Origin: Aureimonas flava
GTDB lineage: Bacteria; Pseudomonadota; Alphaproteobacteria; Rhizobiales; Rhizobiaceae
Assembly (NCBI RefSeq): GCF_003583935.1
Contig: NZ_QYRN01000001.1
Coordinates: 1-64,000, forward strand
Direction of reading: 5' to 3'
Length of the DNA: 64,000 nucleotides
Below, in pieces: positions 38,389 to 42,509 of the stretch (within the stretch, counting starts at the first letter, position 1; each line of letters starts with the position of its first letter). The notes under the pieces were generated by a model. The model searched no databases and was not told the DNA's origin. It saw only the letters and a list, made by a program, of their open reading frames with translations. A program made the translations under genes and the position numbers.

Positions 38389-39528
38389 TCAGAAGGTGGA
38401 GCGTGGGCGATAGGGCATCGCGAAGCGTTCGGCGCTCTGGGCGACGATCGACAGTTCGGTGACGTGGAGCGCGAAGGCGCCGGCGAGCGGCGGCTGCGAG
38501 CCGTCGCGAATCGCCTCGGCCAACCTCGCCGGGCCGCGCATGAAATCCATGCGCGACGAGGTGTCGGGCACCACCGCCTCGCTGCGCGGCACGGCCACCC
38601 GCTTGCCGAACCAATGCTTGAGCGGCCGACCGCGTTCCAGACGCCGCAGCACCTTGCCGAGGATGCCGGCTCGGGGGCGCCAGTGGCCGGCCGGATCGCG
38701 AAGGTAGAGCGGCGAGCGCGCGTTCCAGCCGTCCGTCACCGACAGGACGCCCTGCGTGCCGACGATGTGCAGCGAACGGTCGCTCGGCGCGGCGAGGCCG
38801 CAGGTGAGCCGGGCCACCGCGCCGCTTCGGAAGCGCAGGCAGGCGACGGAGAAGTCGTTGGCGATCTCGTGCGGCGCCTGCCCCGTGCCTTTGTCGGGAA
38901 ACAGCTTGGCCGAAAAGGCGGTCAGCTCCTCCACCGGGCCGAAGAACTCGCACAGCCAGGTGAGATAGTAGCCGGCATGCTCCAGCGTGCAGCCCACGGC
39001 GAACTCGTCTTCCGCCGGCCAGGGCGCGCCGGAGAGGCTGCGCCAGGAGTGGTAGTTCTCGCGGAAGACCATTGAATCCTCCATCTCGGCATAGGCGAGG
39101 CGAACCTCGCCGAGCGTCCCGTCGTCGATCGCGCGGCGCGCGGTCTGCGCAGCCTCGCCGAGGACGGAGGAGGGGGCGGACGCGATCTGCAGTCCCCGTT
39201 CGCTCGCCAGCGCGACGAGATGCTCGGCCTCGCCGATCTCCATCGCGAGCGGCTTCTCGGAATAGACGTGCCGCCCGGACTCGAGGCAGGCGCGCGAGAC
39301 CGCGTAGTGGCTTGCCGGATTGGTGAGGTTCAGGACGAGTTCGATCGAGGGATCGGCCAGGAGCTCGTCCAGCGTGTCGAAGATGCGGGCCCCGTGGAAG
39401 GCCGCGAAGCGCTTGGCCGCCCAGATGTCGCGATCATGGACGCCGACCAGCCGGAGGCCCGGATGGTTCGGCAGGGTGGTCGTGTAGTAGTCGGCCACGA
39501 AGCCGCAGCCGACGATCGCGATGTTCAT
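38389..39528 (-). CDS. Gfo/Idh/MocA family oxidoreductase
   Basis: This 379-residue dehydrogenase-like protein has IAIVGCGFVADYY for NAD(P) binding, EKPLAMEIGEAEHLV and a family-type C-terminal domain (HAGYYLTWLCEFFGPVEELTAF). It is not closely similar to the other Gfo/Idh protein near 8 kb. The substrate is unknown; related proteins in polysaccharide loci act on nucleotide sugars. Confidence 0.82.
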   Translation of the reverse strand: MNIAIVGCGFVADYYTTTLPNHPGLRLVGVHDRDIWAAKRFAAFHGARIFDTLDELLADPSIELVLNLTNPASHYAVSRACLESGRHVYSEKPLAMEIGEAEHLVALASERGLQIASAPSSVLGEAAQTARRAIDDGTLGEVRLAYAEMEDSMVFRENYHSWRSLSGAPWPAEDEFAVGCTLEHAGYYLTWLCEFFGPVEELTAFSAKLFPDKGTGQAPHEIANDFSVACLRFRSGAVARLTCGLAAPSDRSLHIVGTQGVLSVTDGWNARSPLYLRDPAGHWRPRAGILGKVLRRLERGRPLKHWFGKRVAVPRSEAVVPDTSSRMDFMRGPARLAEAIRDGSQPPLAGAFALHVTELSIVAQSAERFAMPYRPRSTF

Positions 39529-39611: not shown

Positions 39612-41015
39612 TCAGCCGCCGGACGCCATCTCCTCGGCCCGCGCCGCCTCGTCCATCGGCGCGGCCGGCCGCGCCTCGTAGCGGCGCAGGAGGCTGGGCA
39701 CGACGCCCGCCGCCGCCAGCACCGCCGCGAGCGCCAGCGCCGCCCGCAACGGCTCGGCCGCGACGAGGCCGAGGATCACCGCGACCAGCGCGACGCCGAG
39801 CGACTGCCCGACGAGGCGCGCGGTGGACTGGATTCCGCTCGCCCCGCCGCTTCGCTCGCGCGGGGCGCTGGTGATGAGGATCTTGTTGTTGGGCGTCTGG
39901 AACAGGCCGAAGCCGAAGCCGGCCAGCGCCAGGCGCCAGACGAGATCGAGATCGCCGGCGCCTGCGGGCAGGAACACCAGCGCAACGAGGCCGGCGGAGA
40001 ACAGCACGAGCCCCAGGGCGCTCAGGCGCGCCGGATCGAACCGATCTGCCAGCCGGCCGGAGATGGCCGCCGCGATCGCCGTGGCGATCGGCCAGGGCGT
40101 CAGCAGGAGGCCGGTCTCGGCGGCCGAGCGCCCGAGTTCGTCGTGCAGCAGGAAGGGTAGGGACACGAAGGCGATGCCCTGCGCGCCGAATGAGCAGACC
40201 GAGGTCGCCGCCGAAAGCGCGAAGATCGGCCGGCGCAGGAGATCGACGGGCAGGATCGGCTCGTCCATCCGAAGCTGCATCCGCACGAAGACGACGCCGA
40301 TGGCGAGCCCGCCCACCAGCAGTCCGAGCGAGGCCGGCAGCCCTTCCGAGTGACCGATCCCGTTGACGCCCGAGATGACCATGCCGAACGTCGCGGCGCT
40401 CAGGAGCGCGCTCGTGAGATGGAACGGGCGGGTCGATCTCGGCGTGTCGGGCAGGGTCCGCGACCCGGCGAGAAGCGCCAGGACGCCGACCGGCACGTTG
40501 ATCAGGAACAGCGCCTGCCAGGACGTGACGGAGAGGATCGCGCCGGCCAGCGAAGGCCCGGCGGCGGACGACACGCCCACCACGATGGCGACGCGCCCGA
40601 CCGCGCGGCCGAGCCGCGCCGCCGGGAAGATGAAGCGGATCAGCGCGATGTTCACGCTCATGATGCCCGCCGCGCCCATGCCTTGGATCACGCGCGCGGC
40701 GATCAGCACGTCGAGCGAGGGCGAAAGGGCGCAGGCGAGGGAGGCCAAGGTGAAGACGCCGAGACCGGCGAGATAGACCCGCCGGTAGCCCAGGATCTCG
40801 CCGAGCCGCGCCAGCGGCAGGAGCAGGACCGTGACGGCGAGCTGGTAGCCGTTGACCACCCAGATCGCTTCCACCGGCGAGACGCCCAGATCGCGGGTGA
40901 TCGGCGGAAGGGCGACGTTGGCCACCGTCCCGTCGAGAACGGCGACGAAGAGCGTCATGGCGATGGTCGCGAAAGCGAGCCGGCGGCGAAGGGGGGGCAA
41001 CCCATCCTGGTGCAT
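39612..41015 (-). CDS. MFS transporter, DHA2 drug-efflux type
   Basis: This 467-residue carrier shows the DHA2 N-terminal pattern (TLFVAVLDGTVANVALPPI, then WVVNGYQLAVTVLLLPLARL) and about fourteen hydrophobic helices. It probably exports drugs or other toxic compounds by proton antiport. The ATG at 41015 leaves a short cytoplasmic N-terminus, as usual. The substrate is unknown. Confidence 0.88.
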   Translation of the reverse strand: MHQDGLPPLRRRLAFATIAMTLFVAVLDGTVANVALPPITRDLGVSPVEAIWVVNGYQLAVTVLLLPLARLGEILGYRRVYLAGLGVFTLASLACALSPSLDVLIAARVIQGMGAAGIMSVNIALIRFIFPAARLGRAVGRVAIVVGVSSAAGPSLAGAILSVTSWQALFLINVPVGVLALLAGSRTLPDTPRSTRPFHLTSALLSAATFGMVISGVNGIGHSEGLPASLGLLVGGLAIGVVFVRMQLRMDEPILPVDLLRRPIFALSAATSVCSFGAQGIAFVSLPFLLHDELGRSAAETGLLLTPWPIATAIAAAISGRLADRFDPARLSALGLVLFSAGLVALVFLPAGAGDLDLVWRLALAGFGFGLFQTPNNKILITSAPRERSGGASGIQSTARLVGQSLGVALVAVILGLVAAEPLRAALALAAVLAAAGVVPSLLRRYEARPAAPMDEAARAEEMASGG

Positions 41016-41121
41016 GCGAGACCGATCGTGGTTTCGGGCCGGCGCGAACGGGCCTTGGGACAGTCTGGTCCCGGTGCGGTCGCGGGCTAGGTGTGACGCG
41101 TAGCAGCACAGGCGTCCGTGC

Positions 41122-41805
41122 ATGGCAAGCCTTGCGCTCGCAGGGGAGGCGGCGATCTGCAACCTGTATTCTCTCACCACGCCGCAGACGGCGCTGCTGG
41201 CCGCCATGCGCGCGACCCGCGATCGCGCGGGCAATCTTCCCGCGATGCCGGCCGTGTTTCCGGATGGACGCGCGCCGATCGTGCGCCTCGCCGAAGGGGA
41301 GCGCGAGCTGGCGCTCGCCCGGTGGGGCATGCCCTCGCCGCAGTTCGCGCTGAACGGCCGCAGCACCGACCCCGGCGTCACCAACATCCGCAACACGGCG
41401 AGCCCGCACTGGCGTCGCTGGCTGTCGCCGGCGCATCGCTGCCTCGTGCCCTTCAATGCGTTCTGCGAGTACGAGACGGGCGCCGACGGGAAGAAGGTGC
41501 CGGTCTGGTTCGCCGCGTCCGAGGATCGCCCGCCTCTGGCCTTCGCGGGCATCTGGACCGCGTGGACCAGCACACGGCGCAAGGCCGAGGGCGAGGTGAC
41601 GGTGGATGCATTCGGCTTCCTGACGACGACCCCCAACGCGGTGGTCGCGCCGATCCATCCGAAGGCGATGCCGGTCGTCCTCACGCGAGGGGAGGACATG
41701 GACCTGTGGCTTGAAGCGCCCTGGGAGGAGGCCAGGGCGCTTCAGCGTCCGCTGCCGGACGACGCGCTGCGCATCGTCGCGAAAGGCGAGCGCAGCGACG
41801 GCTAG
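41122..41805 (+). CDS. SOS response-associated peptidase (SRAP/YedK/HMCES family)
   Basis: This SRAP protein would shield abasic sites in single-stranded DNA by a covalent link to an N-terminal Cys. Family landmarks are [40 protein letters not shown] and the late [10 protein letters not shown] with the active-site His. The ATG at 41122 is the only conventional start, but it puts 12 residues before the Cys that must be residue 2. The codon just before that Cys is ATC (41155-41157), with AGGGGAGG five bases upstream. The true start may therefore be the rare codon ATC, giving 216 residues. The 41122 boundary is conservative. Confidence 0.85.
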
Positions 41806-41808
41806 GCG

Positions 41809-42147
41809 TCAGGCCTTGAAGTCGAGCTCCGCCGGGCTCCCCGCCACACGGTCCTCCGCCTGGCTGCGAACGGCCTCGTCCTGGTTGGCCAACCCGTCCT
41901 CGGTCTCGTCGTATCCGGTGCCCGGCATCGCTGCGGTGATCTCGCTACGCGGCTCCGCTCGCACGTCGATCCTCGTCGCGTCGTCGTCGGCCGGCGTGTC
42001 GGAGCGCCGGTCGGCTTCGTCGCGCAACGCCTCGGCGGTGGCGCTTTCGAGAAGCGCGCGGTCGGCCTGGTCGAGCTGAGCCGTCTCCGCGAATTCGCTG
42101 TGCTGCCGGTCGTTGGGCATGCGCTGCTCGGGAAAGTCCTTGGTCAT
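41809..42147 (-). CDS. small acidic protein of unknown function
   Basis: This 112-residue protein is hydrophilic and rich in Asp, Glu, Ala and Arg, with no membrane segment or known motif. An AAGGAG site precedes the ATG at 42147. It lies 23 bp after the DUF2934 gene and looks cotranscribed. It appears disordered; the family is not recognised. Confidence 0.65.
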   Translation of the reverse strand: MTKDFPEQRMPNDRQHSEFAETAQLDQADRALLESATAEALRDEADRRSDTPADDDATRIDVRAEPRSEITAAMPGTGYDETEDGLANQDEAVRSQAEDRVAGSPAELDFKA

Positions 42148-42170: not shown

Positions 42171-42509
42171 TCAGGCGCGTGTGCCCTGCGAGGGCACCGT
42201 GTTGTCGGGATCGGCGTCGTCCTCGTCCGTCGTTGCGCGCGCCGCCTGCCAACTCGGGCCGCGTGCGCCGTCGCCCATGTCCGTGAGACCCGGGAACTCC
42301 CCCTGATTCTCGAAGGCGACGGCCGGCTCGGCCTCCTGCTCCAGCGAATTCGCCACAGGCGTGAGGGTCGAGCCGTAGCTGTCCTTCAAGGCCACGATCT
42401 CGCGTGCCTGCTGCCAGTGACTGTCGGATCGCCCGTCCGGCCGTCCCTCGGACTCCCAGATCTCGTGGGCCTTCCGGCGAACCCTGTCTTCGTCCAGCGT
42501 CGTGCTCAT
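42171..42509 (-). CDS. DUF2934 domain-containing protein
   Basis: This 112-residue protein starts with the DUF2934 pattern VRRKAHEIWESEGRPDG, then SHWQQAREIV. Its C-terminal half is acidic and low in complexity. DUF2934 proteins are common in rhizobia and of unknown role. It is divergent from the acyl-CoA hydrolase gene and upstream of another small acidic protein. Confidence 0.8.
   Translation of the reverse strand: MSTTLDEDRVRRKAHEIWESEGRPDGRSDSHWQQAREIVALKDSYGSTLTPVANSLEQEAEPAVAFENQGEFPGLTDMGDGARGPSWQAARATTDEDDADPDNTVPSQGTRA

Follow-up and report, generated by a model that had tools for sequence, protein, structure and literature searches.

The SRAP gene lying in the 64,000-nucleotide stretch of Aureimonas flava DNA analysed here (the window) raises the question of where its translation begins: the codon standing directly before the catalytic cysteine is ATC. 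A preliminary description had pointed to this codon and to a Shine-Dalgarno sequence five bases upstream of it, and had left three explanations side by side, namely a start at the rare AUC codon, a protein whose chemistry is lost or altered, and a misread base. The sequence bears out the arrangement, and the SRAP frame that follows is intact (Table 1). In our reading, the AUC is very probably a genuine translation start, conserved within its lineage and served by a strong Shine-Dalgarno sequence, from which a protein beginning fMet-Cys would be made as a working SRAP at a low, IF3-sensitive level. The features of the sequences on which this reading draws are the conserved ATC-TGC, the Shine-Dalgarno sequence, a close relative (SK2) with no other start, purifying selection and intact active-site residues. 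An AUC start fits the need of SRAP proteins for a Cys directly after the first residue; provided that AUC is the start, the TGC that directly follows encodes residue 2.

Table 1. Features of the SRAP locus and its surroundings, with coordinates as positions in the window
Feature	Position	Strand	Basis or remark
MFS transporter, divergent neighbour	39612..41015	-	Pfam MFS_1, 179.9 bits
Intergenic region between the divergent MFS and SRAP genes	41016..41154	.	Presumed to hold both promoters
In-frame ATG, judged not to be the start	41122..41124	+	No counterpart in AU22 or SK2; weak Shine-Dalgarno pairing, -3.0 kcal/mol
Shine-Dalgarno sequence AGGGGAGG	41142..41149	+	Sequence; five-base spacer to the ATC
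ATC, proposed AUC start codon, to be read as fMet	41155..41157	+	ATC at the same place in AU22 and SK2
TGC, catalytic Cys2	41158..41160	+	Directly 3' of the ATC
SRAP gene, CNLY-type, 216 residues including the proposed fMet	41155..41805	+	Stop TAG at 41803-41805; Pfam PF02586
112-residue protein, convergent neighbour	41809..42147	-	Present in 6/6 orthologous loci searched
DUF2934 protein, next neighbour	42171..42509	-	Pfam DUF2934, 44.4 bits

SRAP copies were gathered from 61 genomes and from 21 genomes of the genus Aureimonas, and the contigs of GTDB genomes were scanned as well. From the GTDB scan the best 80 of 406 relatives were kept, and all but L111, which runs off the end of its contig, could be read; among these 79, ATG-Cys occurs in 70, GTG-Cys in 6, ATC-Cys in 2 and ATG-Phe in 1. 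The two with ATC-Cys are the two nearest to the window gene among these 80, Aureimonas sp. AU22 (84%) and SK2 (83%). The ATG-TGC that one might expect in close relatives is thus absent from the nearest two, which have ATC-TGC, but is found in the next four. An AUH codon, ATC, therefore occupies the homologous start in three species and is kept between them, with ATG in the four next relatives. When 40 SRAP places were read, 34 had ATG, one ATA (L042), one TGG (L019, where the match begins at residue 2 and contains a stop) and four ATC: the window, AU22, SK2 and a paralogue, L021 of genome G001. A draw across the order covered 397 genomes, 76 of them with a match; 94 rows matched and 65 were read, the other 29 being dropped (2 from the window's own genome, 2 from genome G055 with internal stops and 25 matching after residue 1). 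The 65 places, all outside the genus, have ATG (61), GTG (2) or TTG (2), and no AUH start was found among them. This set and the GTDB best-80 set overlap, with several genes in both. In Methylopila capsulata (L102), which lies outside the 19-row alignment discussed below, ATG is followed by TTC, so that Phe replaces the catalytic Cys.

The Shine-Dalgarno sequence before the ATC is predicted to pair with the 16S tail, for which we used the sequence as we take it to be, at -12.2 kcal/mol in the window, rank 3 of 80 SRAP starts. In AU22 and SK2 the predicted value before the ATC is -11.7 kcal/mol in each (ranks 5 and 6 of 80). The next four relatives, which have ATG, give -11.7 (A. phyllosphaerae), -7.1, -4.8 and -3.8 kcal/mol. 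A strong Shine-Dalgarno sequence is typical of the ATC species and not exclusive to them, since A. phyllosphaerae ties at -11.7 with an ATG. In the alignment of the window, AU22 and SK2, 11 of the 13 bases from the Shine-Dalgarno sequence to the ATC are identical (11/14 when the 14 bases before the ATC are counted), as are all three columns of the ATC itself. The three species are also alike in 22/44 columns just upstream of the Shine-Dalgarno stretch and in 42/74 further upstream; with about half of the upstream columns alike, three shared bases taken alone are weak evidence. The predicted folding energies of the 85 bases around the start lie between -24.6 and -28.4 for the three species with ATC and between -17.7 and -27.3 for the four with ATG. 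Across these 3 and 4 species there is no consistent difference in the openness of the start, and if anything the predicted fold of the leader is slightly tighter where the codon is ATC, which counts against the AUC reading.

The protein matches the SRAP profile PF02586 at 90.6 bits (cut-off 27.1) over profile positions 2-204 of 214, and its nearest solved chain by sequence is PDB 2aeg (AGR_pAT_140). It resembles YedK and HMCES in belonging to the SRAP family and in its N-terminal Cys and Asn/Glu/His columns; it differs from them in being of the CNLY-type and not the CGRF-type, and in its proposed start at AUC. A hand-picked alignment of 19 rows, one gene being entered twice, has this Cys2 throughout. 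The active-site Cys, Asn, Glu and His are kept in the window gene and in both ATC orthologues (columns N76, E104 and H167 for the last three). By our own motif-based matching, these columns would correspond to Asn75, Glu105 and His160 of YedK, where the roles of the active-site Cys, Asn, Glu and His are described in the accessible text of PMC9436759. Within the ATC trio, dN/dS is 0.119, 0.168 and 0.116 (Nei-Gojobori, own script), with a proportion of changed synonymous sites (pS) of 0.46-0.51. Judged from these substitutions, the SRAP gene with ATC is under purifying selection and alive.

The obvious competitor for the start is the in-frame ATG at 41122, which counts against the AUC reading. 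From the preceding stop up to the Cys the window has 18 codons, counting the ATC, and among them it is the sole ATG, GTG or TTG. The preliminary description had noted that it is the only ATG and would add 12 residues; the Cys would then stand behind 12 residues, 11 more than if AUC were used. Translation might thus begin there, with the extension either kept or later removed to free the Cys, for instance by self-processing of the kind proposed in the case of human HMCES (as the accessible text of PMC9436759 notes). The predicted Shine-Dalgarno pairing is -3.0 kcal/mol before this ATG vs -12.2 before the ATC, and the codon is without a counterpart in AU22 and SK2. In AU22, the canonical in-frame starts are limited to two TTG codons that immediately follow the stop. 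They lie 20-21 codons upstream of the ATC, and the predicted pairing is -6.4 at this distant pair vs -11.7 at the ATC. In SK2, the open stretch from stop to Cys comprises 15 codons including the ATC, and none is ATG, GTG, TTG or CTG. The alignment of the three species requires a one-base gap between the ATG of the window and the Shine-Dalgarno sequence; this gap and the missing ATG argue that the upstream frame is no shared coding stretch. Mass spectrometry of YedK active-site mutants, moreover, showed every one of them to be still without its N-terminal Met, according to the same portion of PMC9436759. We therefore regard a start at the upstream ATG as very improbable. That ATC and ATG differ by one base leaves room for a misread base in the assembly, but two further assemblies, each from another species, have the same ATC, and this explanation, which had been among those first offered, is refuted unless all three are wrong alike; its probability is negligible. 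The case for the AUC is made by the lack of any other start in SK2 together with the coding constraint, and the proposal of the preliminary description that the gene starts at a rare AUC gains support from an ATC and ribosome-binding site common to two separately deposited species, one of them, SK2, without a canonical start.

The remaining alternative is that an ATG decayed to ATC in a gene that is becoming a pseudogene or has no chemistry, and the other SRAP genes of these genomes lend it some substance. A CGRF-type SRAP of ~210 bits is found in each of the seven genomes compared, in all seven with ATG-TGC. A further CNLY-type copy with ATG occurs in the window genome, which holds two other SRAP genes altogether, and in AU22 (L002 and L050); AU22 also carries an SRAP fragment with two stops, and no CNLY-type SRAP besides the ATC gene was found in SK2. 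With ATG-start SRAP genes also present in these genomes, the ATC copy may be dispensable. Two paralogues speak for decay. L021 (G001:C12:3592-4236), from another Aureimonas genome, has an ATC before the Cys, a weaker SD-like stretch (-6.4) and an open frame, and its active-site Asn, Glu and His have become Ile, Gln and Asn; it is probably without activity although its frame is open, and may illustrate how a decaying copy looks. That its Cys, too, follows an ATC is an argument against taking each ATC for a start. L042 has ATA, a pairing of -1.9, and ends at a stop after 97 residues. The sister of L021 in the tree, L056 (G010:C2:122306-122947), is an ATG-start paralogue in which the catalytic Glu has become His. 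Against decay at the window locus stands the state of the ATC trio: after long divergence none of the three genes has lost any of the four active-site residues, the Shine-Dalgarno sequence is strong in each, and dN/dS is low. Loss of function is hence a very improbable account of this gene, and with its residues intact and purifying selection acting on it, the suggestion of lost or altered chemistry finds no support.

The three ATC cases belong to one Aureimonas lineage and perhaps go back to a single event, which counts against the AUC reading. The SRAP trees neither show nor reject an ATC clade (AU p 0.379 for DNA and 0.216 for protein); in the 34-row SRAP protein tree the ATC species form a grade, and the rpoB tree groups them with weak support (49/81). 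The ATC may have arisen once, or an older ATC may have reverted in the A. phyllosphaerae group.

Initiation at an AUH codon, differing from AUG in the third base, has a counterpart in the same genus. The start place of infC, which we located by its N-terminal motif, is ATT in 21/21 Aureimonas genomes (L137-L157), and 8/21 (G005, G011, G013, G014, G016, G019, G012 and G017) have a stop codon three codons before it. The presence of ATT in all 21 genomes indicates that AUH initiation is at work in Aureimonas. The CAU tRNAs of the window genome are ordinary (three inspected), and one, L281, has what we take to be initiator-type ends. We considered an unusual initiator tRNA, one able to form a normal pairing with AUC, and rejected it, there being no GAU anticodon among 44 tRNA hits, a set that is itself incomplete, since tRNA-Ile(GAU) is missing from it. 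The absence of that tRNA may reflect an rRNA operon lost in the draft assembly.

The relative of infC, dsg of Myxococcus, reportedly starts at AUC. In E. coli, as in Aureimonas, infC starts at AUU, and the likeness to the SRAP gene lies in an AUH start, with a third-base difference from AUG, that is decoded as Met; the E. coli start is limited by IF3 (accessible parts of PMC1780047 and PMC9410913). The difference is that infC, as the gene for IF3, is self-regulating, whereas the SRAP gene has AUC and no self-regulation. The same sources describe E. coli pcnB (AUU), an unrelated gene with a different codon, whose expression is likewise held down by an inefficient start. In S. aureus, ccpN (AUA) and cvfC1 (AUU) share with the SRAP gene a conserved non-canonical start and a strong extended Shine-Dalgarno sequence, and in poor medium their reporters reached ~10% of the output from AUG (PMC13009471, accessible text); these are other genes, codons and a different phylum, and initiation was measured there, whereas for the SRAP gene it is read from the sequence. 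Raised IF3 inhibits non-canonical starts (PMC2268962, in excerpt), and in a purified system IF3 lowered AUU initiation with anticodon CAU (PMC10158994, in excerpt). AUC itself was among the seven best-initiating codons in an E. coli reporter survey quoted in the accessible portion of PMC12350097, and annotated AUC starts exist in prokaryotes (PMC9845219, in part). In the accessible literature, outside which most subscription papers lie, we found no published AUC start in an SRAP gene, and the present gene adds a new case to the known AUH starts.

The surroundings of the gene are conserved, the MFS, 112-residue and DUF2934 genes keeping their order around SRAP in 6/6 orthologous loci searched. 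No sigma-70-like promoter consensus was found in 40950-41200. A LexA-type box at the SRAP gene was considered and rejected: using the direct-repeat pattern as we take it to be, there is none near 41155, the nearest being at 39328. The window as a whole has six such LexA-like repeats (22576, 39328, 51128, 55223, 59214 and 61250) vs 1.73 expected, and 1/100 shuffles reached six.

On our reading, the strong and well-spaced Shine-Dalgarno sequence would hold the 30S subunit over the AUC, which the usual initiator tRNA with anticodon CAU would decode as fMet in spite of the mismatch at the third base. Translation would yield a protein beginning fMet-Cys, from which deformylase and methionine aminopeptidase would expose Cys2; together with Asn, Glu and His, this Cys would make up a functional SRAP site able to crosslink to abasic DNA. 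The decoding of the AUC, the removal of the Met and the crosslinking to abasic DNA are steps that we infer from the sequence. The AUC would also set a low, IF3-sensitive expression, like the AUU and AUA starts elsewhere; the analogy with these suggests a reduced, IF3-dependent output of the SRAP gene. A more tentative idea, which we think rather unlikely, is that selection has kept the AUC as a control point that, together with the AUU of infC, ties this SRAP copy to the IF3 level. If that were true, SRAP synthesis would rise as initiation fidelity relaxes, for example under stress, a purely translational switch for a DNA-damage protein.

Start finding usually allows ATG, GTG and TTG only, and AUC starts are for that reason easily missed; one screen lost an AUC candidate to such a restriction to canonical starts (accessible text of PMC12350097). 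The chemistry of SRAP proteins fixes the N-terminus independently, so that the sequence reveals the true start and an activity assay can test it. Start-codon annotation could find a natural test set in SRAP genes, and the AUC SRAP gene of Aureimonas could be a natural reporter of IF3 discrimination outside E. coli.
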